This document shows positions 19,901-52,020 of a stretch of 64,000 nt of DNA, piece by piece. The stretch comes from Struthio camelus (Eukaryota > Chordata > Aves > Struthioniformes > Struthionidae). Numbering within the stretch: position 1 is the stretch's first letter; each line of letters begins with the position of its first letter. Made by a program: the position numbers and the translations under genes. The notes beneath the pieces were generated by a model, which saw only the letters and a program-made list of their open reading frames with translations, did not search any database and was not told the DNA's origin. The DNA lies in NCBI RefSeq assembly GCF_040807025.1, contig NC_090964.1:6806214-6870213 (forward strand), written 5' to 3'.

Positions 19901-21460
19901 GAGGTCCTGGACCTCTCCTACTTGGTTGACCATTTAGCTTCCGACCCCTTCTTCAGAAATTACCGCCGCCTCAATGAGAAGCTGGTGGAGGTGATTGAAG
20001 ACTACAGCCTGGTGTCCTTCGTTCCGCTTAACGTCCAGGTGATGCAGCAGGAAGAGTGGGGTAGAGAGAACAGAGAGCATTGGACGTGTAGCCAACGCAT
20101 TTGTTAGCAGCTAGGTTACGTCTGGGCTTCCGACAGGCGGAAGAAAGGGTGCATCTTCAAGGTCATACGCCAAAGCCCCTCACTGCCTCTGCCCCCAAAA
20201 TGTGGTTGTAGGAAGTAAAGCCATGAGGCATGGGAAGCTTAAATATTGAGGAACACAGGGATGGAGAAGGGCAGTGAAATACACCCAACCTTGTAAATGG
20301 TTTGTGATAGCCAAAGGACAAGAAAAGGCTAATGAAATTGGGGCTAAGTAGGCCTTCTTTCCTGGGGTGGACATCTCTTCTGCACCTGCATTTCAATTCT
20401 GGGCAAAGTATTACCTAAAACATTGTTAAATTAGGGAGCACAAGATAATTAGAAGATGGGAGGAATACGTTTATGAGGAAGGGCTAAGGTGTTACTTTTG
20501 TAGTTTGCTGAAGTGGCAACAGAGGGAGATGTGCTTAGAGGTGGTAGAAGGAGGTGAGAGGGCAGAGGATGTCAGCACGTTGTGTATTCAGTGCCTCAGA
20601 GAAAATGTATGGTGAAGCCTAGTCTGCAGTTCAGTCCCTTCTGCTTCTCGACCTTACGCTCATTGGCCAACTCTCCAGGGCCAACAGCATTAGCTCTTGC
20701 CTCTGGGGAAGGATCAGTGTGTCACCTCCCTTCCTTTCAGGATAAGGAGAGCATGCGGCGGGTGATGCAGGCAGTGGACAAAGCCAACGGCTATTCCTTC
20801 GGAGACCAGGAGCACAGGAGCCTCGAAGCTCTGATGTCAGCAGCAGTGGGAGCTGATTTCCACTTTACTTCGTATCCTTCTCCGCTCCGTTGCTTTGAGT
20901 TTTGATCTCTCTTTCATGGATTGGGGGAAGGGGCAGGGATGTGGGCCTGGCAGCTTGCAGGCCCAGGCTGTTAGTAACATAATGCGATGCTGGTTGGTGA
21001 TAGATGTGCAACAGGTTGGTAGGGCTCAGCCCAGATCTTAGCAGACAGTTGTCCACACCAAAGCCACCACATTTGTTGCTAATTGATATCTTAAATGTGG
21101 GTGGAATCTTTTGATAACTTCCCTCTTATTCATGCTCACTTGGACTGTTTCATTCCACTTTGTCCAAACTCTATAATTGATTCCCCTGTAGTTGTCAGGT
21201 TTATGATCAGCCAAAGCCAGAAATAACTCAGGTGATGCATGTTGTTACGGGTACTGCTGTCTTCCTGCCAGCCTCCAGGCTAATGGTGGGGTTGGTTCTT
21301 TGCTGAGAACCTTAGAACTCCTTGCAGAAAGGAGTGTTTTGAGCCCAGCCCCTGCTGTCTTGTTTTCCTTGATTTATGAGTTATCAGCACACTTGCAGTG
21401 CAGGAGAAGTATGTGCGATCTCAGGACAAGGCCGTGGAAGAAGAAGTGATGGATATGTAG
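16982..21460 (+). CDS. GPN2: GPN2, GPN-loop GTPase 2
   Basis: GPN2 is a small dimeric GTPase of the GPN-loop family needed for cytoplasmic assembly and nuclear import of RNA polymerase II, acting with GPN1 and GPN3. Five exons, 16982-17398, 18967-19123, 19878-20038, 20741-20871 and 21388-21460, have consistent phases and give 312 aa (human 310). Motifs seen: P-loop GPPGSGKT (18-25), NLDPAN (46-51), the family-defining GPN loop (78-80) in LGPNGG, DCPGQ (112-116) and the SKMD guanine-specificity motif (180-183). The [16 protein letters not shown] and [14 protein letters not shown] segments match human. The last exon is short and ends EEEVMDM. Exon 4 ends ACT TC with an unusual GTATCCTTCT donor: intron 4 looks U12-type. 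The start gives the family-like N terminus. Confidence 0.96.
17555..17730 (-). mobile_element. MIR-like SINE relic
   Basis: In GPN2 intron 1 the order CCCCCATTTTATG, GGCAAAGAGTGCCTTGCTCAGG, then GGGTAGAAAGAGGGATTCTT and TCTGGCTTTGCTC resembles the antisense MIR core (cattttacag ... gacttgc(c/t)caag ... agagctgggatt ... ctctaac). It is strongly diverged. Confidence 0.45.
18749..18768 (+). repeat. (CA)n microsatellite
   Basis: About ten AC units lie in GPN2 intron 1, followed by a GTATACAAGCGTGTATTTATAT tail. Confidence 0.85.
20872..21387 (+). other. GPN2: GPN2 intron 4: U12-type GT-AG intron
   Basis: The donor reads TC|GTATCCTTCT, matching the minor-spliceosome 5' consensus GTATCCTTT in 8 of 9 positions and lacking the usual U2-type +5 G. 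A branch-site match TTCCTTGAT lies at 21365-21373, with its A at 21372, 15 bases before the CAG end at 21387. That spacing is typical of U12 introns. The splice is phase 2 and restores [10 protein letters not shown], as expected from the human protein. Confidence 0.8.
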
Positions 21461-26056: not shown

Positions 26057-26797
26057 TCAGTTCTTGGGCTCTTCGCCGGCCTCGCCGCCGTCTTCGCCGG
26101 CGCACTCGGCTGTCCATAACGTGAGGTTGTCCCTGAGCAGCTGCATGATGAGGGTGCTGTCCTTGTAGGAGTCTTCGCTGAGCGTGTGCAGGTCCCCCAT
26201 GGCCTCGTCGAAGGTGGTCTTGGCCAGCGAGATGGCCTGCTCGGGGGCGTTGGCGATCTCGTAGTGGAAGACGGAGAAGTTGAGGGCCAGCCCCAGGCGG
26301 ATGGGGTTCGTGGGCTGCATCTCCTTTTTGCTGATGTCCATGGCCTCTTGGTAGGCTTTCTGGGCACTGTCTATCGTCTCCTTGCGGTCATCCCCGGTGG
26401 CCACCTCGGCCAGGTAGCGGAAGTAGTCTCCCTTCATCTTCAGGTAGAAGACCTTGCTCTCCGCGTCGCTGGCCTTCTTGATGAGATACTTGTCCAGCAG
26501 GCCCAGGACGACGTTGCAGACGCTCTTCAGCTCCTTTTCCACCTTCTCACGGTACTCGTTCACCAGCTGCGCTTTGTCGTCGCCCTCCTCGGTTTTGTGC
26601 TCGATGCTGGAGATGACCCTCCAGGCGGAGCGCTGGCACCCCACCACGTTCTTGTAGGCCACGGAGAGCAGGTTGCGCTCCTCGTTGGACAGCTCGTCCC
26701 CGTGCTCCACCACGGCCTTCATGAAGTCCGCCATGTCCTCGTAGCGCTCGGCCTGCTCGGCCAGCTTGGCTTTCTGCACTTGGTGGTTTCTTGCCAT
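26057..26797 (-). CDS. SFN: SFN, 14-3-3 sigma (stratifin)
   Basis: 14-3-3 sigma is a phosphoserine/threonine-binding adaptor, p53-inducible in mammals, that restrains CDK1 and acts in epithelial differentiation. The gene is one uninterrupted exon, as in human; 246 aa against 248. Seen: [34 protein letters not shown], the phosphopeptide pocket K49, R56, R127, Y128, [40 protein letters not shown] and the acidic tail ending EEPKN. The sigma-specific Met, Asp and His (human M202, D204, H206) are kept at 200, 202 and 204 (AMGDLH), which separates it from the other 14-3-3 paralogues. The frame stays open upstream of the ATG, but the MARNHQ start aligns with the family. It lies tail-to-tail with GPN2, as in human. 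Confidence 0.96.
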
Positions 26798-28360
26798 GGC
26801 TGGCGGCGGGGAAGGGGGGACGCGGGTGGACGGGCGAGCGGCGGCGCGGGGGGAGACGGAGCGGCGAGGAGCGGGCCGGTCGCCTTGGGGAGCCGTCGGA
26901 GCCTCTGCCGAGCGCCGCCGCCGGGATTCGCTTTTGGCCGGGCGTCGGAGCCTGGAGCAAGAGCGGGAGGAGCCAGGAGGCCGCGCGCAGCCTCCTTCCC
27001 CGCGTCCCCGTCCCCGTCCCCGCCGCGCCGCCCCTTGCGAGGCAAAATTGCCGTGATTCATCGCCCCGCCGGGCAAAAAAGGGGGCGCCGGGGAAGGGGG
27101 GGGGGCGAGCGGGGCGGCCCCGCGCCCGGCCCTCGCCCCGGGGCGGCCCGGCCCTGGGCCCACCGCTGGCGGCGGACCAAATTAAAAAAAAATTTTAAAT
27201 TAAATTTGAAAAAGCCCCAGAACGGTGCACCCGGGCGCTGCCGGGCGGCAGCAGGAGCTGCAGGGCGCGCTCGGCTCCCGCCGCCCGGCCGGCGCGGGAA
27301 ACGGGCCGGGGGGGCAGAGAGGGTGGAAAAGGGGTTGGGGGGGGCTTCCTCCCCCGCCGCCCACCCCAAAAGCCTATCAACGAATCAGTGCCGGTTTTCG
27401 CCGGTGGCTGGGAATCGCCGCGGCTCGCCGGGCAGGTGGGAAACGGAGCCGGGGCTGAGCCGCTTGCCTGAGCCCCGGCCGGCGCTCCCGGCTCCCATCT
27501 CACCCCCCCCCCCCCGCCGCCGCCCCCAAATTAAGGTGAAATCAGCTCGTTTCGTTGAACTACCAGGCTGCCGGCTGCCAGCAGCCAGACGGACCCAACC
27601 GAAAAAACACCCCATAACTCGAAACAGGACGGTCGAGGAAGAGCGACGGGAGGCTGCACTTTTGGGGACGACTCTGGGCGTTTTGGGGCTTCGGCGGGCC
27701 CCCAGAGCGAGGTGCCCGGCGCCCCCGGCTCGGCCTCTCGCCCGCTCCCGGCCGGCCAGCGGGGGCCCCTCCACCCCCCTCGCTGCGATTCCCCCCGCGG
27801 CGCCGCCGGCCGAACGGCTCGCCGCGGACTTTGCCGATCTCTTCCAAACGCGATGGAAATGATTCTTTTTTTTTTAACTTTAGGAAAAAAAAAAAAAAAA
27901 AACCCGCCGGCTCGCTCCAGGTGTTGGCTGCCCTTGGAAACGCGCCGGCCAGATTAGGATCTGCGCTTCATGTTACGCTGCAGTTTCGCTCTGGAGCTGA
28001 TTAAGCCTGTTCCCACACGCAGGGCGCTGACTGCGCCGGGAGGCAGCGCGGCCAAGCCGGCTGCACCCCCCGGGCTGCCCGCCGCGCGTGCGGCAGCCGT
28101 GCGGGAAGGGCAGGGTGGCGGCGCCCGGCCGAGGCCAACTGTTTTATCAGCGTCACCCGCCGCTTTACTCATGGCTGCAAACACCCCCCGGCGCCGCCCC
28201 GGCCGGCTGGGCACGTGCAGCGCATCCCTGCGGCGGCGGCATCGCCGGCTCCCTTCCCACCGCCGCCTTTCCCGCTGGGGCAACGGCATTCGGGAGCTCT
28301 CCGCCTGGATAAGTCTCTGGGTGCCTGGAGAAGGCGGTTTGGCCTTGCTGGGTTCCTGCC
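26798..28360 (-). promoter_or_regulatory. SFN: SFN upstream CpG island
   Basis: CpG-rich DNA extends about 1.5 kb upstream of the SFN start. It is interrupted by a compact A+T block at about 27179-27212 (TTAAAAAAAAATTTTAAATT-type) and by an A run near 27884-27901. The A+T block could serve as a TATA-like element, but it lies about 380 bases before the ATG and I could not place the transcription start. No clear p53 element (two RRRCWWGYYY half-sites) was found by eye. Confidence 0.5.
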
Positions 28361-28369
28361 TGCCGGAGG

Positions 28370-29632
28370 GGTCCCAGCACCTTCCCGCAGCCCCGACACC
28401 TTCCTGCAGCCCCGACACCTTCCCGCAGCCCCGACACCTTCCCGCAGCCCCGACACCTTCCCGCAGCCCCAGCACCTTCCTGCAGCCCCAGCACCTTCCC
28501 GTAGCTCCGACACCTTCCCGCAGCCCCGACACCTTCCTGCAGCCCCGACGCCTTCCCGCAGCCCCAACACCTTCCCGCAGCTCCGACACCTTCCTGCAGC
28601 TCCGACACCTTCCCGCAGCTCCGACACCTTCCCGCAGCCCCAGCACCTTCCCGCAGCTCCGACACCTTCCCGCAGCCCCAGCACCTTCCTGCAGCCCCGA
28701 CACCTTCCCGCAGCCCCGACACCTTCCCGCAGCCCCAGCACCTTCCTGCAGCCCCAGCACCTTCCCGTAGCTCCGACACCTTCCTGCAGCCCCAGCACCT
28801 TCCCGTAGCTCCGACACCTTCCCGCAGCCCCGACACCTTCCTGCAGCCCCGACGCCTTCCCGCAGCCCCAACACCTTCCCGCAGCCCAGCACCTTCCCGC
28901 AGCCCCAACACCTTCCCGCAGCTCCGACACCTTCCCGCAGCCCCAACACCTTCCCGCAGCTCCGACACCTTCCCGCAGCCCCAACACCTTCCCGCAGCTC
29001 CGACACCTTCCTGCAGCCCCAGCACCTTCCCGTGGCCTCGACACCTTCCTGCAGCCCCAGCACCTTCCCGTGGCCTCGACACCTTCCTGCAGCCCCAGCA
29101 CCTTCCCGTGGCCTCGACACCTTCCTGCAGCCCCAGCACCTTCCCGTGGCCTCGACACCTTCCTGCAGCCCCAGCACCTTCCCGTGGCCTCGACGCCTTC
29201 CTGCAGCCCCAGCACCTTCCCACGGCCCCGACACCTTCCTGCAGCCCCAGCACCTTCCCGCGGCCCCGACACCTTCTCATGGTCCCAGCACCTTCCCGCA
29301 GCCCCAGCACCTTCCCGCAGCACCGACACCTTCCTGCAGCCCCAGCACCTTCCCATGGTCCCAGCACCTTCCCACAGCCCCGACGCCTTCCTGCAGCCCC
29401 GACACCTTCCCATGGTCCCAGCACCTTCCTGCGGCCTCAACACCTTCCTGCAGCCCAGCACCTTCCTGCAGCCCAACCCCATTCCTGCAGCCTCGATGCC
29501 TTCCCGCATCCCCGACACCTTCCCACAGCCCCGACATTTTCCCGTGGCCCCAACATCCTCCCGTGGTCCCAGCACCTTCTCGCGGTCCCAACACCTTCCC
29601 GCGGCCCCGACACCTTCCCGCGGCTGCTTTTT
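28370..29632 (+). repeat. 19-bp minisatellite (CAGCCCCGACACCTTCCCG), about 66 copies
   Basis: A strict 19-bp unit, CAGCCCCRRCACCTTCCYG, is repeated about 66 times, 1.6 to 2.8 kb upstream of SFN. Variable positions are few: CCCC/CTCC, GACACC/AGCACC/AACACC and CCCG/CCTG. Between about 29026 and 29210 the array becomes a 38-bp dimer (one CAGCCCCAGCACC unit plus one TGGCCTCGACACC unit) repeated five times. The distal end degenerates. As 19 is not a multiple of 3 and the unit lacks stops, overlapping frames of 400-500 codons are open on the minus strand and about 200-270 on the plus strand. Confidence 0.95.
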
Positions 29633-36909: not shown

Positions 36910-39900
36910 CTAGGGAATGCCTCCTACCATGCTGGTGTCAGTTTTGGCTCCAAAGGAAGGGATTTCACTCTTAGGACTGGACGGGGTCCCAACATCCGGC
37001 TGGATAAATCCTCTTCTGTCTATCAAACTGGAAAACAAAAGGGAAAGGATGCAAGGGGAGAGAAGTTACAACTCTCCGGAAATGAAGACTAGAAGCTACA
37101 CAGTAAATCAATCGGTTTCTGCAGAAAGAGATACCTGGCACAGAACAGGGGATTTAAAGCTTGGACAAAGGGAAGGAGTAAGTCTGGTAGTGAAAATTCC
37201 CTTCCTCCAGTCTCATGAGCACAGCCAAGTGAAGGAGCAGAAAACAGACTGCACTCAGTACAGTATCTCGGTCTGCTCAGCAACCCCAAGCAAGTGCCCC
37301 TCACCCCATGCTTTTCTAAGAACGGCTGCGTGCCTCCCTCCTAGCACTGAGTTTTAAAGCAGAAGGCCTTGATCCATTTGGTGTCGAGCAAACATGCTGA
37401 GAAGCTGCTGCCTCAGCTGGCCTTGGCAGCTAAGTCAACTCTATCCACAGTATCAGAACCCTCCTGACATCCAGACACCCCCATCACAAGGCTGGGAGCT
37501 CACATGCCACAGCTGTTCAGAGATGGGTCTCCCTGCGGGAGCTGCTAACCAAAGCATCAGCAGGAGCGGTTTGGACAACACAGCTTCCTGTCCATTAGGC
37601 AAGCCACAAACATCACACAAGCCACCAAACAGTCTTTAGTCAGTAAAAGCTTTGGGTCACCACAAACCCAAATGGGAACTGGTGATAGGACTTTACAACA
37701 GGAAAACAACATAAACGAGAAACGATTTGGAGTAAAATGCTACCCTCCCAGCACACAGCTTGGCTCCCTCAATCTGCAGACTTACCATTACCAAATAGCA
37801 GCAGTAGCATTTCAGCACCTCTAGACCAACCAAGAGCTTGGAGTACTTCAGAGAGCAGGACAGGACACGAACAGAGAACACTGACTTTAGCTATGTGGCC
37901 CTACTTGAAACTCAGACGCCTTCCCCTGCTGTTACATTACACTGAGTTAGCACCTCTGGGATGCTCTATATAAATCCAGATCGGATCTCGGCAAACAAAA
38001 TACTGTCTCAAGGAGACCTGCATGCCCTAAGACAGACCGAGAGCTCCAAGTCAGCATGCAGGTCCTCAAACCCAGCAGCCAAGTGCAAGACGACTCCAGT
38101 CTAACCGCCCAATTGCACCCTCTTGTGACAAAGCAGTGATAATTCTATGCTGCTCATGGGCCTGAAGGAAAAGCAGCTTGAAGGTGCCCATGCTTGAAGG
38201 TGTCCATGCTCCAGGTCCAAAGCTTTATTTCATTACACTTGGAGCGAACTGCCTGCCTTTGCCTCTCTTTTCATCGTTGTTCTGGTTAGCTCACAGGTAA
38301 GCAAATTTGGTAGGATGCTATTAAGCATTTCAGGCCATCTGAGTGTTGCTTAAAGATCAGGGTCTCCACACTGCCTGGCGCAGATCCCTGCTGATTGCTC
38401 GCCAAGAGTTAGTCTGACACTTGCTCCTTGCAGTACAGGAGGAAAAACATGCGCTAGGAAGTACTGCCACAACTGACGTCTACCATTTGCCAGCAAGCCC
38501 TTTGGTGCTGTTACTGTCCCCTTATTAAACCACAGGATGCTTAAGCTGCAAGTTCCACGAAACAATTACAACTGACCCAAACTCAGCAAGTTCAAACACA
38601 GAAGCAGCAACAAATCTTAAATCTTTTACATTTCTCCAGCCTTTCTCTGCAGAGTCTGGGAAACTGTTTCCCATCTTCATGGATGGGGGATGTTCATCAT
38701 CACAGGAGTACATGTGTTTGCCCGACACAATCTCTTGTGAATCATAATAAACCCGTGCTTTCTGGGGTCCTTCTCACAGAGCAGGATGCACTTCCCAACG
38801 CAGTGGAGGTCAAAAGCTCTTACCTGGGATGGAACGGTCCACACAGCACTGCACAGCAGTTTGTGAGGATACTTTTATGGCTGTAAGGATTAGCAAACTC
38901 TGAGCCCCTCTTATTTGACCAGGACCCTTTGATCTGAAAGGGAAAGGATGCGTGCAGATTAAGATGGGAAAGACATGATAAGAGATAAGAGATCTACATG
39001 ATAATAGAGTCAGTTCAAATCCTTGCTCAGGAGGCAAAAAGCTTCTGTCCTACTAAAAATATCCTCCTTCGCTTTAACAAGCAGGACAACTGCAGAAAGG
39101 CAGCCAGAGGAGACAGCAATATGCTCTCCTGCCTTTGCCAAGGTTCAACCTTGCAGCTACAAAGTTCCAAAGCTGTGCCCTCCTCGTGTTTCATGGCAGC
39201 TTGTCAGCATCATTGCCTTCAACTCCAGCCTCTTCTTCCCTCATCTTCTACCAGGCTGAAAGCTCACTGGAGCAGGGCTCCTAGCTAATGGTACCTTGCA
39301 TGCTCCTCAGGCTAAACAAACAGCAAGGGGATTCCCAGGCCATTCTGCTAACACAAGGAAACAATGTCATCTGCCCACACCCTGAGCAGCTGTCACTGGG
39401 ACTCGATTTCGAAACCCCAGTCACGCCAACCACGGGCACACAAGAGCGGGCAGATGCTATACCTGGCCTCAAGCCCCTGGCTGAAGCGAACCATTAACCA
39501 CCACGTTTCCTCTTTTTGTTTTTACTTCCTCTCCCCAGGTGCAGCCTAAGTCTGGCAATGTGGGCAGTGCAACCAGAGAAGCAATGGGCCATATGCTCTG
39601 GACTTGGTGCTTTGGTGCTCTCAGTACCAGGGTGCAACCTCCATTAGCTTCACTTACATGGCCTTGCACAGCTCTGCCAATACCTCCAAACATAATAGGA
39701 GAGGAGGGAAAAAAGCCACACACATTTCTTCTGCAGTGATGGAAGCCTCCAGCAAGCATTACAGGTACTTGTGGCCAGAAGGGTGAATTTTGATTCCTTC
39801 CAAGGATCAGACAGATCCTGCTTTTCCATACAGTCTGCCTTGCTCAGGGTACTCATTTGGCCATTCAAGGCTGCACGCACCACAGTCTTTAAGGTAAATA

Positions 39901-42900
39901 TCGTCAGAAGATGTCTGTACATTATTTGCCTATTACACTTGAGGAACTGACAGAGACAAAGGGACTTGCCCAGGGTCTCACAGGAAATCTGTGGTTAGGC
40001 AGGATGCTGAATTAAGATCACCCGTGTCCCAAGCTAAAACCCAAATCTCTGGGGGCGGTCTTCCTTTTTTAAAATCTCAGAACTCCAAATTTTAAACAAG
40101 ACCACATATAGACCAAAAAAAAAAAAAAAAAAACATGCGACCTTTCAAACGTTTCAGCTAGTTACTTCCTAGCCTGACGTGGCCAAGTAAAACGTGCTGC
40201 CCTCCCAACACAATGCCCCGCTGTTGTACATCACTTTCTCCCCACTCAGCTATCCGAACTAGAGCCTCAACGCCTTGGGCATGGGCTGTTTGCTTCGTTA
40301 TGAATTATCATAGGCAATGCAGACAGAACGCTTTACCCAGCGTACCGTACCAAGGCACCCAGTCAGGGACTCCCTGAAAACTTCACCTCTGCTTAGAAAG
40401 TAACAGGGCTGGCAGCCCCCCTTACACCTTTCAGAGCCGGCTCTGTGAACGGACAAGCATCCGGGTACTTACATCTTCATTCGTTGTCAAGTTGGAGGCG
40501 ACTAAGTAAGTATGAAAACCTGAGAGGCCCAAAATAGACCAGACTGAGAAAAAACAAATCACCAGCTCCAGCACAGTGAAAAAAGGAGTTAAGGAAACCT
40601 CAAAGAACAAAATCTTCCTGCAAGGAGAGGCAACGGGCTCTTTTGGGAAGACCACATGCACTGGGCCTTGAAAGCACCCTGGCTTCTGAGGGGTTGGCTG
40701 AGAAGCCCACACAACACATGTACGTGCCCACCCCTTCTTTTAGGGAAAGACTCCCCCCACTCCCAGCAAGGGGAGAGCATTTCAGTGATGACAGCAGGTA
40801 GGCCGCTACCTTCCCATTCCCTGTGCTGGTCTGAAGACATTCATCAATGCACAACCAACTCCAGTCATTCCCCTTTCCACATAATCTTGCAAACTGCAAA
40901 ACAAGTCTGTTACCAAACTTTAGTCGCTGCCACAACGAGCAGGGAACTGATAGTCCAACTGCGGCAGTGACCTAAACATGGATCTAAAGATCCTACCAGT
41001 TTGGTGGTGCTATCAGTCTACAAATGGAGAAGTGCCTGCCTGCCTGCCCCAATCAGGTAGCTAGGGGACTAAATTAGGCTTTGGAAAGTACATCAAGGTG
41101 CCCCTTGGAAAAGCTCATTGCACTACTGTGTGACACTGTCAGCGTTGCTGCACCAGGGCTCAACAGTCAGAGCAACTGATAGCATTAGAAGGATATCTCG
41201 CAGGCGTTGTCTTCAGAGTGGTGAGGAATCCATCTCTCTGAGAGCCTGCAAAGCAAAACGGGACAAGGAACTACGTTCCATCAGGCAGCCTTGCATCTCC
41301 AGCCAATCTGCTTCACTCCTGAGTACACAACCGCCCTCCCCCGCAGGCCAGACAGATCTGCCTGGCTGCCCATGACATATATTCAGTCTGTAACTTTGCA
41401 GAAATGTCAGTGAGCAGACACGGCTCCAAGAGGTTCAGGGCTGACAGGCAAGTCACTTTCCCTGCGAGATCCAGAGTAGATGCACCCAAAGCCCTTCAGC
41501 CCGCTGCTGCCCTAGCATCACATGTAAGTCATCTGCTCTGAAGAGAATAACCTAGTCACTAAGTGTTACAATTTCCCTGTAGTGAGGTGCAGGGTGGATC
41601 TGTGGCTCCCTGCAGTCTGAGACCCAGTTTACGCAGGCAGCCCTGCAGTGAAGAGCCTCATATTAAACCAGCAAAGGCCAGACCCTTCCCCCACTCTGTC
41701 CACTAAGAACAGAGGCCCTGCTGCAGCATGGAGTCACAAGTCACTCCTCTCCAGGAGCGCAGTGCTCATTGCTACTAGTAACCGCAGTACTTACGCAGAG
41801 TGAGGTGGGTGACAACACAGGCAAAAATGAAGGCTGTCAGGAAGGAGAGGGAGAGGATGAAGGCATAGAAGTAGCGATAGTTGCGCTTCCCCACACAGTT
41901 GCCCACCCAGGGGCAGTGGTGATCAAACCTCTCTGAAACAAAGGAACATCGTGAGAACTCCTGTCATCTCACACACAGTAACAGAGCAAACTCTGCTGAA
42001 CCTCTGCAAATCCAGAGGCTACAAACTGAGCTTCCACCTGCCACACTAAGATCAGAACCTCTTAGCAGTAATACATTAGCACAAGTTTCAACAAAGCACT
42101 GCAGCCTGCTCGCGTGCCCTTTTATAACACTAAAGGCCAAATCTTTCCTCTCTTCCAGCCCCACATAAATACAAACCTTGCGACTGGTAGCATCTACCAT
42201 TACTAAAACTGAAAGAAAGCAGGGAAAGTGCAGAGATGTTTTTCCACTCTCTGGCAGTAGTGGGTGTGTGCACCCAGCATCGCTGCTCCCCTTCTGTGCG
42301 TCAGTCCCCCCCTCCACCTTCTTCCGAGCAGAAAATAATTTTCAACGTTGTGAAGATACGCCTCTAAAACCACAGAATCTGCCTGGGAACCCAGAGCAGG
42401 TGCAAGACATCTGGAAACACTCCTGGCTGTTTTCTAATGAAAGGGTTGTATTTAAAACTAACAGGACTGCTGTAACTGTAGCGCAGGGGCGACTAACGCA
42501 AGTAAACTTATCCAATACAAAGCAGAAACATGCCCATTCCTCCAGAAGGCTCCCCTCCAAACACTGTCCCAGTCATGGCTGCTTTCCAGTGAGCCATTCT
42601 AATGTAAAGAGGAGTCACAATTTCCAAAACTATCCCCAAACACATGGGGCTCAGCAGCTCTCAGACTTCTCTTAACCAGAGTCCTTGGGATCCGGTAACA
42701 CTCTCAGGTCAGTCATCCCATCCATTCCTCAAGCTGCTCCTGCAGACAGCATAATGCACAGCCTCCGGTTGCACGCAGCGCACAACCAGGAGCCTACCCA
42801 TGGGGACTGAACTCAGTCACATGCCACCCTCTTGCCAGTTCAAGTTGCTCCTGCACAGCCAGACTGAGCAGGGAACCTCATGTCACCCTCACGTTTCCTG

Positions 42901-45900
42901 CCTTCCTGCCCTGCTCATCCCCCTGCACCTGCCTTGGGCCTGGCTGTGCAGAGCTATTGGAGGCTTTCTTCACATCTTTATTTTCTCCTGTTCCTCTTGT
43001 CCCACCAGAACCTGAGGGCACAGGGGGAGGACACAAAAAGACTAAACCAGAATCTATGCTGGTGCCTCTACAGCCCTGCCTACAGCCAGGGGACAGACAA
43101 GGAGCCTTCAGCACTGTTCCACAACCCTGCGCCTGGGGGAGGCCTTAACCACATCTCACGATACAGTCCTCCTAGAGCCACAGGAAGAGAAGGCACAGAG
43201 TACTGGAGAGGTGATGTCCCCCAGCCCAAAACCACTGCACTGGCGTTGCTCTCATTTTAAACGGGAACGAGAAAGACGACTTAGTATCTCACTTCATAAT
43301 CCTTTAACAGTAGTAAAAGCAATCTGCCCAGGAACCTGAAATACTCCCCCCTGCCCCTCTCCCACAAGAGATATCAGCATACTTCCAGCCTCTGGACTTA
43401 CCAACGCAGTTGTCGCAGACACTGCAGTGAGAGGTTCGTGGAGGGCGGAACATTTTGCAGGTGTAGCAATACTTTAGTTTCACCACATACTTGTTGATGA
43501 CCACTTCCATCGTGCGGGCTGGTGGGCGATAGGTAGAGGTACCCATATTATCTACAAGGGGAAGGAGGGATAGTCAAACTGGTGCAGGTGAAACCCAACC
43601 TATCAGATGCTCCAGCCAAAGCCCCCACATCATGCCAAGCGACTTCCTGGCAGAATAAGGGACGGCACGTGCTCTCCTGCTCACGTGATTTTAATGCAAA
43701 AGCTGAGAGGCAGTTCAGCCTACAGGATTTGTTTCAGAGTGGGCAGCCAGGAGCTCCAGTCAGCTCCTCACAGCATTGTTTATGTTCCCTTTGCTGTCTG
43801 GTCAAGGAAAATGCTGCTGGGATGACAAGAGGAAATAATATCTGCCCAACGCTTTGAAAACATAAAGCAATATATAAATAGTGAGCATAAAAGCAGCAGT
43901 GTTAATGCGCCCAGTAACACCAACTCATCTCTACACGTCTAACAGTTCACAACAAAAGGAGGCACATAATCTGTTAATGCACGTGCAGTTCCTCCTCTGC
44001 TGTATGCACAGCATCAAAGTTACAGAAATCAGGAAACCGTCACATTAGGGTAACCTCAGTAAAAGCATCCCCAACCTGTAGCTGGAGCCAGCAGCACAGC
44101 CATGCTCAAGAGACTCATTTTCATGATAGAAGGGGAGGACGGCAGGCAGGTCTCAAGCGCTCCAGACAGATTTCATTGAAATTTGACACAGGTACATTAA
44201 TAGCACAAGAGGAACTATTCTCCTCAAGGCTGAAGCTGAAGAATTTTTAAGGACGCTACAAGCTGCACTTAGGTATGCTGCACTGGCATTTGACTAGTAA
44301 TTTGGGACTGACAACTGAAGACTGTTTCTTCAATCAGCATGAGCGTGAGCTGGGAAACCTCTGTATCATGTTTGCAATTTGGGGAGTTATTTCATAATTT
44401 ATTTAATTCACTCTTAAAACAACACCTTTACAACTTTGAGGAAGTCTTTGAAAATAGAGATTTAACAGTGAGCAGATTAAGAGGAAAATGACTGGATTAT
44501 ATTAACAGTAACAGCTGGCACAACCAGCAGCTTCTGAAGCCAGCTAACCGCTTTAGGCACTTTTAAATAGAAACATGGATAACCACTCTGAGGATATTTT
44601 AAAACTAGTTGTATGGGCAGACACAGAATTATTGCCTTGCAACCATCTTCAGTGGGGACAGATTCAAGTTGTCTCACATTAGCTTTGCTAAAGCATTGTG
44701 TTACTAAGAGCAACATCAAAGCAGTCCACAGATCCTGAATGCATACGCTTTCTTGGCTACCACAAAAACAGTGTGACATAGCAGTTTTTAGATAGGGACA
44801 AATATTAGCGTGCTGTTAATGAAACCATTAATAAAGGAGACCTTGAGGCACAGCAGGCTAAATGGCAAATCATAACCTTAAAAATACTCATTTCTAAATG
44901 AATTATCCTACCAATATTTTGCAGGAAAACTTACAGGGTAAGATCCCTCCTAGTCTGGACAACATTCAAAGTAATTAACGCTCTGTAACAAAAGGGCATA
45001 GGCACTCTCACTCTAGTCTTTCTTTCAGCAAAAAAGAGAAGCAGAACAGCTAGCCAGCTTTCTCAGCACCAAATCTGCAAGTCTGTCCCCAGGATCGGAC
45101 TTTTCCGAGAGGCACAAACAGGGTGTGGGTGGTTAACAGCAGCGGCAGTTGAGTCTTTTGCTGTCACCACATTCACCTGTCACAGAGCGTCCTTCAGGAA
45201 GGATGGGATTTTCAAAGACTTTCAAAGAAGTCAAGAGGAGTCCAAATGAAATTCCATAAAAGCCAGACACAGAAAAGGTTACTTAAAACTCCAGGCTAAA
45301 TCTGTTTCATGCACAATTTCACAGTATCGGTCAGTACTATGCAAAACTGAAGACAAACAAAAACGCGGCCCAGGCTGCCCCTGGAACAGGACACCTACTC
45401 TCCCCAGCTGAGCCTTGGTGCCTTCACCTGGAGACCTATTTAGTGCTAGTATAACTGTATTCACGCAAACAGAATGAAACACTTACAAAGAAAAGCAAGG
45501 ACATGGCGTCTAAACACAGCATACAGCCTTTTCCCTTACAAGGCTTAAGCTTTCCAGCTCAACCCTCACTGTCTGCAGCATAACATAAGTAGAGATTTGT
45601 TGTGGTTTACCAGAAGCAGCTCTGAAATCCACTAAAACCAGCAGGAGTCTCCATGAGGGGTGGCACTCTAGCCCTGTGCACTTGGAGTTAACATACAGAC
45701 TACATGCTCAGTTCCTTCTCACATCAGCCTTCACAAAAATCCAGCATCAGTCATCTCCCCCCTCCACTCCAGACACATCAAGCAGGAATCTGGCAGGGTG
45801 CTTTAAGGCTACAAATCCACGGTCCCTTTACATCACTATTTCTCCCATAAAGTCAGTCCTGCTCTCTGCTCCTCTGCTTCCTGGTCCTGCCACCTTCCCT

Positions 45901-48900: not shown

Positions 48901-50368
48901 AGCGGGGAGCTTCCCTGGGCTGGCTCAGAGCCACCTTCCTGAAAGGAGAGGAGATCTGGGGAGACACACTTTCCCCTTCCCCAGACACCACTGCATAACG
49001 AAGGTAGAGCTCCAGTGCGGACCCTCAAGGTGAGGCCCTACACGTCACAACGGATTTTGCCATCCTTCAAGAGCCTTTAAGAGAAACTCCGTTCCTACCT
49101 CCTCTACCTAACAAATTGCACCAGTCTTAATGATCTTCTGGCTGCATGGACCAATTTACTTCTTGGTAGGCTTGGAGTAGGAGAGATTGCAGGGCTATTA
49201 AGAGACAAGGAGGACATCTCACGACAGGGAGCTGCTGAGGCGGTTGCCCGCTTTGGTCATTGAGGATGTTAAACCTACTCACAACACCAGTGCTTCCCGC
49301 CAAAGCAGGGCTGGGAACCTCGCAGCAGGAGAGTGATTTAAGGAAAGAGAGTGGGGAGAAGGGAAGGATACTGGGGCTCTCGCACTGGGGAGAGGTGCCT
49401 GCCCATAGCTCCTGTCACCTGCTTCAAGAGGGTACATAGGGAGGGCGAGATGCCACCTAACACATGTGTGAGCGGGGACAGCTTCTCTCCTGCAGCCCCC
49501 TCCAGCCAGGGGCTCAACAGAGGGGAACAGACCCCAACCCCTGGCAGAGAACAATCTGGGAAAGTGGAGGGGGACACAGACCCCAAAGGCGGGGACAGAC
49601 CCCACAAGGCTTCATCCCTGCAGAGAAGGGAGGGGCTAACCCCAAAGAGGGGGGGCCTAGATCCCCCTGCAGAGGGACAGACCCCACAGGGCACCCAGAG
49701 CCCACAGCGTGGGGGGGACAGCCCCCAAGGGGGGCCCCCACAGCCCCCTCAGCACAGGGACAGACCCCACAGGGCACCCAGAGCCCACAGCGTGGGGGAG
49801 ACAGCCCCCAAGGGGGACCCCACAGCCCCCTCAGCACAGGGACAGACCCCACAGGGCACCCAGAGCCCACAGCGTGGGGGGGACAGCCCCCAAGGGGGGC
49901 CCCCACAGCCCCCTCAGCACAGGGACAGACCCCACAGGGCACCCAGAGCCCACAGCGTGGGGGGGACAGCCCCCAAGGGGGACCCCACAGCCCCCTCAGC
50001 ACAGGGACAGATCCCAGAGGGCACCCAGAGACCCCAGCATGGGGCGGGGGGCAGCCCCCGAGGGCGACGCAGGCCGCAGGCGCCCCCCAGCCCGGCACTC
50101 ACTCGAAGGCGAAGAAGAGGCCGCTGGTGGCCAGGATGAGGCCGAGCGTGAGGGCGAAGACGCCGCTGTGCCGAGCCAGCATGAGGCGGCCGCCGCAGTA
50201 GAAGCGGTTGCGGCCCGGGAACACTTCCCATTTCCGGCGGGGCCGGCGGGCCGCGCCAGGGCGCTCCGGGGCGGCGGGCGGCGTGCCGGGAGCGGGCGGC
50301 GGCGGCGAGGCGGCCAGGCCCGGCGCCGCCACCCCCGGCGGGATCTGCCGGTACTCGCAGTCCTTCAT
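36910..50368 (-). CDS. ZDHHC18: ZDHHC18, palmitoyltransferase
   Basis: ZDHHC18 is a Golgi protein S-acyltransferase of the DHHC family; human substrates include HRAS/NRAS. Eight coding exons: 50368-50103, 47172-47012, 43551-43402, 41932-41795, 41245-41197, 40575-40473, 38933-38824, 37027-36910. Phases agree throughout, giving 364 aa (human 388; the difference is mainly the Pro/Gly/Ala-rich N terminus). Seen: MKDCEYRQI start, [22 protein letters not shown]1 about 69-88, TM2 about 97-118, DPG motif 123-125, Cys-rich domain with DHHC at 196-199, further hydrophobic segments, TTxE (TTNE, 285-288), the [18 protein letters not shown] PaCCT region and SLIDRRGF. The end is TSMVGGIP. Exon 5 is only 49 nt, and the intron after it is AT-AC (U12-type). 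Introns are otherwise GT-AG. Intron 1 holds a tandem repeat near exon 1. Confidence 0.96.
39925..40045 (-). mobile_element. MIR-like SINE relic in ZDHHC18 intron 6
   Basis: CTTGAGGAACTGACAGAGAC, GGGACTTGCCCAGGGTCTCA, then CAGGAAATCTGTGG and GTCCCAAGCTAAAACC follow the antisense MIR core order (gaggaaactgag ... gacttgcccaaggtcaca ...). Confidence 0.65.
40576..41196 (-). other. ZDHHC18: ZDHHC18 intron 5: U12-type AT-AC intron
   Basis: On the minus strand exon 5 ends GCG AG and the intron begins ATATCCTTCT, matching the U12 5' consensus ATATCCTTT in 8 of 9 positions. The branch-site consensus TTCCTTAAC occurs exactly at 40596-40588, 12-13 bases before a terminal CAC (AC at 40577-40576). Exon 6 then begins TGTGCTGGAG. 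The phase 2 join gives [13 protein letters not shown], as in human. No AG lies between the branch site and exon 6. Confidence 0.88.
43835..43895 (+). mobile_element. MIR-like SINE tail
   Basis: ATCTGCCCAACGCTTTGAAAAC, then AAAGCAATATATAAATAGTG, resembles the sense 3' tail of MIR-family SINEs (gcgctttgag ... gcgctatataaatg). The fragment is short and diverged. Confidence 0.35.
46005..46068. promoter_or_regulatory. Intronic TCF/LEF-GATA motif cluster with hairpin
   Basis: In ZDHHC18 intron 2 the string TCAAAGATAAGATC occurs twice. Between the copies, ATCTTTGATT (46038-46047) and AATCAAAGAT (46052-46061) form a perfect 10-bp inverted repeat with a 4-base loop. Each arm contains a TCF/LEF-type ATCAAAG, and the direct repeats contain GATA-type AGATAAG. 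Function is inferred from the motif only. Confidence 0.4.
49675..50045 (+). repeat. Tandem repeat, alternating 83/82-bp units, in ZDHHC18 intron 1
   Basis: The unit begins GGACAGACCCCACAGGGCAC and contains CCCAGAGCCCACAGCG and CAGCCCCCTCAGCACAGG. Units start at 49675, 49758, 49840, 49923 and 50005, so the spacing alternates 83, 82, 83, 82. The two unit types differ at GGGGGGCCCCCAC versus GGGGGACCCCAC. Divergent copies extend leftward to about 49500. The array ends about 60 bases before the exon 1 donor. Confidence 0.9.
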
Positions 50369-50595: not shown

Positions 50596-51114
50596 AGTCT
50601 CTCTCTCTCACACACACACCCTCACACCCTCACTCCCCCTACCCTCACACACACCCCTGTGCTGAAATCCCCTCTCACACACACACACCCACCCACCCCT
50701 GTTGTGAAATCCCCTCACACACACACAGAAGACACCTGAGGTGAAATCCCCTCACTCACACACACACACGCACGCGCGCCTGTGGTGAAATCCCCTCACA
50801 CACACACACACACATACCTGTAGTGAAATCCTCTCACTCACACACATGCCTGTGGTGAAATCCCCTCACACACACACACGCCTGTGGTGAAATCCCCTCA
50901 CACACACACAGAAGACACCTGAGGTGAAATCCCCTCACTCACACACACACACACGCACGCACGCGCGCCTGTGGTGAAATCCCCTCACACACACACACAG
51001 AAGATGCCTGTGGTGAAATCCCCTCACACACACATGCTCCTGGGAGAGCTGTGCACACACATACACAGTCTCACACACAGTCCTCTTTGAGCCATGCGCA
51101 CACACGCACACACA

Positions 51115-51149
<35 letters not shown>

Positions 51150-52020
51150 AAGAGTTCTGTGGTGAAATCCCCTCACACACACACACGCCTGTGGTGAAAT
51201 CCCCTCACACACACACAGAAGACACCTGAGGTGAAATCCCCTCACTCACACACACACACACGCACGCACGCGCGCCTGTGGTGAAATCCCCTCACACACA
51301 CACACAGAAGATGCCTGTGGTGAAATCCCCTCACACACACATGCTCCTGGGAGAGCTGTGCACACACATACACAGTCTCACACACAGTCCTCTTTGAGCC
51401 ATGCGCACACACGCACACACACGCGCACACACGCGCACACACACACACACACAGAGAAGAGTTCTGTGGTGAAATCCCCTCACACACACAACACACACAC
51501 ACAGTTCTGTGGTGAAACCCTGTCTCCCACATACACACACACCCCCTCACTCCCCCTACACACCCTTACACACACCCCCTCTCCCACTCACACACACAGA
51601 CAAGAGTTCTGTGGTGAAATCCCCTCACACACACAACACACACGCACACTCCTGGGGGAGCTGTGCACACACGTAACAGTCACACACAGTCCTCTGAACC
51701 ACGCACGCGCGCACACACCCACCCAGACGAGGTCTGTGGTGAAATCCCCTCACACACACAACACACACACCGAGTTCTGTGGTGAAACCCTGTCTCTAAC
51801 ACACACACACACTATCCTGTGGTGAAATACCCCCCCCCCACACGAGTCCTGTGGTGAAACCCCTTCACATACACGCACACAGTCCTGTGATGAACCCCCC
51901 GTCACGCGTGTGCACGCACACACACACACAGTCCTGCGGTGACACCCCCTCGCACACACAGAGTCCTGTAACGAAACCCCTTCACACTCACACACACACA
52001 CACCCTGTGGTGACCCCCCC
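50595..52020 (+). repeat. CA-rich compound satellite with GTGGTGAAATCCCCTCACAC units
   Basis: Runs of (CA)n alternate more than twenty times with a conserved core GTGGTGAAATCCCCT. Part of the array is a tandem block of about 307 bp: the segment from about 50881 to 51187 recurs from about 51188 to 51490 almost unchanged, including the non-repetitive insert CTCCTGGGAGAGCTGTGC and CAGTCCTCTTTGAGCCATGC. A more diverged third block follows. All open frames here (Cys/Val/His/Thr-rich) are repeat artefacts. Confidence 0.92.

Follow-up and report, generated by a model that had tools for sequence, protein, structure and literature searches.

The ZDHHC18 locus raises the question of how exon 5, the end of which cannot be placed by annotation restricted to GT-AG introns, is joined to exon 6, and whether the intron between them is an oddity of one gene or an old inheritance. 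The window, meaning the whole 64-kb stretch of DNA that was analyzed (C23:6806214-6870213), belongs to a genome of 1.45 Gb in 262 contigs. The exons lie on the minus strand: exon 3 at 43402..43551; exon 4 at 41795..41932, which carries FDHHCPW and has TTTCAG and GTAAGT on its flanks; exon 5 at 41197..41245, 49 nt long, which is without GT and ends in CCTGCGAG followed by ATATCCTTC; exon 6 at 40473..40575, 103 nt long, which ends in TTNED followed by a GTAAGT donor; and exon 7 at 38824..38933. Apart from the intron in question, the boundaries of exons 3-7 are ordinary AG and GTAAG sites, and the joined exons make an unbroken reading frame of 182 residues. The joined protein has a Pfam DHHC match (1.3e-38), and its best match in the PDB is human ZDHHC9. 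Judged by the DHHC domain and the closest match to ZDHHC9/14/18, the gene is a member of the DHHC9 subfamily. It is called ZDHHC18, and not ZDHHC9 or ZDHHC14, because separate ZDHHC9- and ZDHHC14-like loci are present in the genome, and because its neighbors (14-3-3 sigma and a GPN-loop GTPase) agree with what we take to be the human gene order near ZDHHC18.

The neighborhood has some features of its own. The gene for 14-3-3 sigma, SFN, is a single-exon reading frame of 246 aa (26063-26800, minus strand, the stop codon at its end left out). At 28378-29621 there is a minisatellite of 19-bp units in about 66 copies, and because of this repeat at least two minus-strand frames stay open for several hundred codons. 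The stretches 50684-52020 and 49669-50068 contain tandem arrays rich in CA, one of which has a period of 307 bp and 99% matches, upstream of the likely exon 1 of ZDHHC18, and a minisatellite of 82-83 bp where its intron 1 starts.

The intron between exons 5 and 6 (40576..41196, minus strand) is 621 nt long and in phase 2. Its 5' splice site, ATATCCTTC (41188..41196), holds an exact copy of the donor word ATATCCTT at 41196-41189. The consensus of the U12-type branch site is TTCCTTRAY, and it is matched by TTCCTTAAC (40588..40596), in which the likely branch adenosine is 40589 or 40590. The intron ends in TCAC, its 3' splice site AC being at 40576..40577, and TTCCTTAACTCCTTTTTTCAC directly precedes exon 6. 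The distance from A40589 to the intron end, at the terminal AC, is 13 nt; the published optimum is 11-13 nt (PMC3584512). On these signals and the evidence given below, 41196-40576 is almost certainly a U12-type AT-AC intron.

The single splice-signal words, taken alone, are not very telling. RTATCCTT occurs four times in the 64-kb window against 1.58 expected, and TTCCTTRAY followed by AC three times against 0.86 expected. Their combination tells more. The strict pair, ATATCCTT with TTCCTTRAC and a following AC, occurs once in the window; among 300 dinucleotide shuffles of the window it turned up in one, and when the 773-nt stretch from exon 5 to exon 6 was shuffled 20,000 times it never did. 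The looser pair, RTATCCTT with TTCCTTRAY and a following AC or AG, occurs twice, and 23 of 300 shuffles had at least one. Stronger evidence than these shuffle statistics is that the sister genes have the signals at the matching codon too, as described below.

The second occurrence of the looser pair is the likely U12-type GT-AG intron of another gene, at 20872-21387 on the plus strand, 516 nt long and in phase 2. It is the last intron of the GPN-loop GTPase gene and reads TTTACTTC/GTATCCTTCTCC ... TTCCTTGATTTATGAGTTATCAG/CACACTTGC, slashes marking the splice junctions here and below. Exon 1 of that gene has an ATP_bind_1 match (1.2e-49), and its best match in the PDB is GPN-loop GTPase 3. The gene is presumably GPN2, whose C-terminus the joined sequence probably matches. 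The branch-to-end distance, 15 nt, is greater than the optimum. From its sequence, this is likely a second U12-type intron of the window.

The ends of the ZDHHC18 intron have also been examined through the protein. With introns of at least 40 nt, and with acceptors allowed as far as 60 nt inside exon 6, 80 joins keep the frame open (11 GT-AG, 30 GC-AG, 28 AT-AG, and 11 AT-AC). Exactly one of them, the AT-AC pair given above, yields the expected protein. In an alignment of 176 residues with human ZDHHC9 (8hf3_A; E 2.1e-84), this protein is free of gaps at the junction TTPAS/VLELV, and the sole gap, of two residues, is further downstream. None of the GC-AG or AT-AG joins yields the expected protein, and with a different AT-AC end, at 40588, PFFT is added and the cut would fall at the branch site itself. 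The initial annotation had given the donor, branch site, AC acceptor, and 49-nt exon 5 correctly to the base, and its claim that these ends restore the expected protein agrees with the gap-free junction.

The number of open joins might be taken to mean that exons 5 and 6 are separated by a U2-type GT-AG or GC-AG intron and that the AT-AC signals are coincidental, the more so as the intron contains two U2-like acceptors, at 41018 and 40618. However, exon 5 is without GT, and each of the 11 GT-AG joins uses a donor that fits the consensus at three of nine positions and inserts ARYPSNAI, which is lacking in human ZDHHC9. Coincidence is also at odds with the recurrence of the same signals in ZDHHC9 and ZDHHC14, and we consider a U2-type junction of this sort extremely improbable. 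Equally little credence is given to removal of an intron with AT-AC ends by the major spliceosome, as happens with the U2-type AT-AC introns of sodium-channel genes. The class of an intron does not follow from its end dinucleotides by themselves (PMC2831892), but U2-type AT-AC introns are reported to have G at +5 (PMC2831892), whereas the ZDHHC18 intron has C at that position within ATATCCTT and, 13 nt before its end, an exact U12-type branch site.

Searches of the genome with ZDHHC18 exons returned further DHHC loci, seven matches in one search and 23 in another. The ZDHHC9 and ZDHHC5 loci were named by resemblance to human chains in the PDB alignment, and two others, L032 and L009, are presumably ZDHHC8 and ZDHHC14. 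In ZDHHC9 (contig C11), an AT-AC intron of 287 nt, GGGAC/ATATCCTTCC ... GTCCTTAACTGCGTTCTCAC/TGTCC, is at L011 4491-4777 on the plus strand. In ZDHHC14 (contig C3), an AT-AC intron of 5381 nt, GCAAG/ATATCCTTTC ... TTCCTTGACTTTCAATCAC/TGTGC, is at L009 306-5686 on the minus strand. ZDHHC8 (contig C17) has a GT-AG intron of 1441 nt with the U12-like donor GTATCCTT, ATTAC/GTATCCTTCT ... TTTCTTTAACTCCTGGATCCAG/AATGG. ZDHHC5 (L033, contig C5) also has a GT-AG intron with a U12-like donor, GTATCCTC, of 126 nt, GTCAC/GTATCCTCTT ... TTCCTTAGTTGCCTGCTGGCAG/TATGG. The branch site has one mismatch each in ZDHHC8 and ZDHHC9 (GTCCTTAAC in the latter). The signals of ZDHHC5 are weaker (GTATCCTC; TTCCTTAGT), and its intron is the weakest case for the U12 type. 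RTATCC donors are found in all five genes, and in all five the intron is in phase 2, while the exon after it has a length of exactly 103 nt and ends in TTNED or TTNEQ. ZDHHC9, ZDHHC14, and ZDHHC18 share an exon 5 of 49 nt. The initial annotation had pointed to ZDHHC14 for comparison, and in the same genome that gene has an AT-AC intron at the same codon and phase. Its reading of the ZDHHC18 intron as a minor-spliceosome AT-AC intron thus gains from ZDHHC14 and ZDHHC9 alike, in addition to the splice signals and the restored protein.

Other DHHC loci were inspected by eye in thirteen 10-kb regions, and no RTATCYTT donor was seen there adjoining a recognized DHHC exon; the intron need not be confined to the five genes. 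A likely TTxE exon was seen in three of them (L034, L039, and L042). Exon 4 of ZDHHC14 (FDHHCPW) was not found by a motif search between exons 3 and 5 (L009, L010, and L035; C3:77981400-78006000), and may be hidden by a 151-N gap at L010 536-686. A scan of viral contigs (viral_contigs) for relatives gave two stretches that match a pattern, neither of which encodes a relative.

The five genes in which the matching site has a U12-type or U12-like intron coincide with the published DHHC9 subfamily (DHHC9, 14, 18, 5, and 8), whose members depend on GCP16 or GOLGA7B (PMC10076531). A ZDHHC8 intron, called intron 4, is listed as a GT-AG U12-type intron in human and Drosophila and is reported to have turned U2-type twice in Diptera, in D. 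ananassae and in Anopheles (PMC2831892, Table 2 for the listing). This number may follow the fly gene. A fly ZDHHC8 gene appears in the U12 list of PMC2952598 as well, with another gene number. We infer that the published intron is the one found here in L032. The ZDHHC8 intron reported as retained in PMC10705125 is the final one and so has no bearing here. Because the ZDHHC8 intron is U12-type in human and fly, and because the five genes make up the DHHC9 subfamily, one ancestral U12-type intron would have been present before the five genes split and been inherited by ZDHHC5/8/9/14/18, with a switch between the GT-AG and AT-AC subtypes separating the ZDHHC5/8 and ZDHHC9/14/18 branches. Vertebrate U12-type introns are stable, 156 of 180 clusters having been kept in every lineage of the comparison, and subtype switches are known from 36 U12DB clusters (PMC2831892).

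The ZDHHC18 intron could be real and U12-type without a single ancestor for all five, if the introns of ZDHHC5/8 had a separate origin, or shifted separately, near the same codon. MAFFT places the split residue at column 64 in ZDHHC5/8 and at column 62 in ZDHHC9/14/18, the subtypes differ, and ZDHHC8 and ZDHHC5 are without the preceding intron, which divides exons 4 and 5 of ZDHHC9 and ZDHHC18 in the same genome. However, the two-column offset results from a 2-residue gap downstream of the split residue, and counting back from TTNE without gaps aligns the split residues of the two groups; this count and the equal 103-nt exon argue that they are one site. The shared phase 2 and the RTATCC donors in all five also speak against independent origin, as does a metazoan comparison in which loss was commoner than conversion and a single U2-to-U12 change was reported (PMC2831892). 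Independent origin is therefore considered unlikely, although less so than the two U2-type readings. Since four sister genes have a minor-class intron at the matching place, the ZDHHC18 intron is, on present sequences, most likely an old inherited intron of known kind and not an oddity of one gene.

A broader proposal is put forward tentatively, as possible but still short of being favored: one U12-type intron, already present before ZDHHC5/8 and ZDHHC9/14/18 parted, may have been kept in the five GCP16/GOLGA7B-dependent genes through their duplications and a switch between GT-AG and AT-AC, so that the output of the subfamily would be jointly dependent on the minor spliceosome. If true, the whole subfamily, including Ras-palmitoylating enzymes, hangs jointly on that machinery. 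The intron itself is of known kind; what deserves to be followed is the pattern across the subfamily. Among the literature matches listed, no description of the ZDHHC18 intron or of the five-gene pattern was found in the text available from them.

Genes for the minor-spliceosome RNAs are present in the genome, each match being over the Rfam cut-off and each count a lower bound of at least one locus: U11 on C23 (108.8 bits), U12 on C1 (150.3 bits), U4atac on C6 (97.7 bits), and U6atac on C20 (134 bits). An 18-nt piece of the genome's U12 RNA and a 15-nt piece around the ZDHHC18 branch site form 11 pairs with one bulged A (-11.7 kcal/mol), and seven of 1000 letter shuffles were as low. The corresponding counts per 1000 are 70 in ZDHHC9, 45 in ZDHHC14, 32 in ZDHHC8, and 17 in ZDHHC5. 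Neither U11 nor U6atac stands out by the energy of its duplex with the 5' splice site of ZDHHC18 (74 and 122 of 1000 shuffles, respectively, were as low), and over all five 5' splice sites the counts for these two RNAs run from 5 to 918 per 1000, with no reliable pattern. By the established mechanism of the minor spliceosome, extended here to ZDHHC18, U11 and U12 would recognize ATATCCTT and TTCCTTAAC, U6atac would then take the place of U11 at the 5' splice site, and one of the two branch-site adenosines would attack the 5' end of the intron.

The consequences of failed splicing can be predicted by translation only. The U2-like 3' splice site CCTCTCCTTGCAG (40618..40630, minus strand) precedes the U12 branch site by 21 nt, and joining exon 4 to the acceptor at 40618 leads to a stop after nine codons. 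If the intron is retained, translation in the frame used stops at residue 124, which is 12 codons past the split codon, and skipping exons 5 and 6 together shifts the frame. Exon skipping and use of cryptic splice sites around minor introns have been reported in general after inhibition of minor snRNAs (PMC8034651), and both would be predicted for ZDHHC18. Palmitoylation is named among the functions of genes affected by loss of Zrsr2, the gene itself being unnamed in that account (PMC9501576).

It remains to place the intron among known ones. The initial annotation had called AT-AC introns among the rarest in vertebrate genomes. This is fair against all introns, U12-type introns being less than 0.5% of them (PMC2831892), but within the U12 type AT-AC introns are common enough, their share being 26% in human and 18% in chicken (PMC7367187). 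Because of these shares, the ZDHHC18 intron is rare among introns at large but ordinary among those of its kind, and the class is known and well studied. Like vertebrate U12-type AT-AC introns, it has the ATATCCTT donor, a TTCCTTRAC branch site, and AC some 11-13 nt past the branch A, and it is a single such intron among the U2-type introns of its gene; there is no substantial difference. Compared with the introns of ZDHHC9 and ZDHHC14, it is of the same subtype and at the same codon and phase, with the same flanking exon lengths (49 and 103 nt), whereas its length differs from theirs and the ZDHHC9 branch site differs by its one mismatch. The published ZDHHC8 intron belongs to the same gene family and, if it is the L032 intron, also shares the site, the phase, and the 103-nt next exon, but its ends are GT-AG where those of ZDHHC18 are AT-AC.
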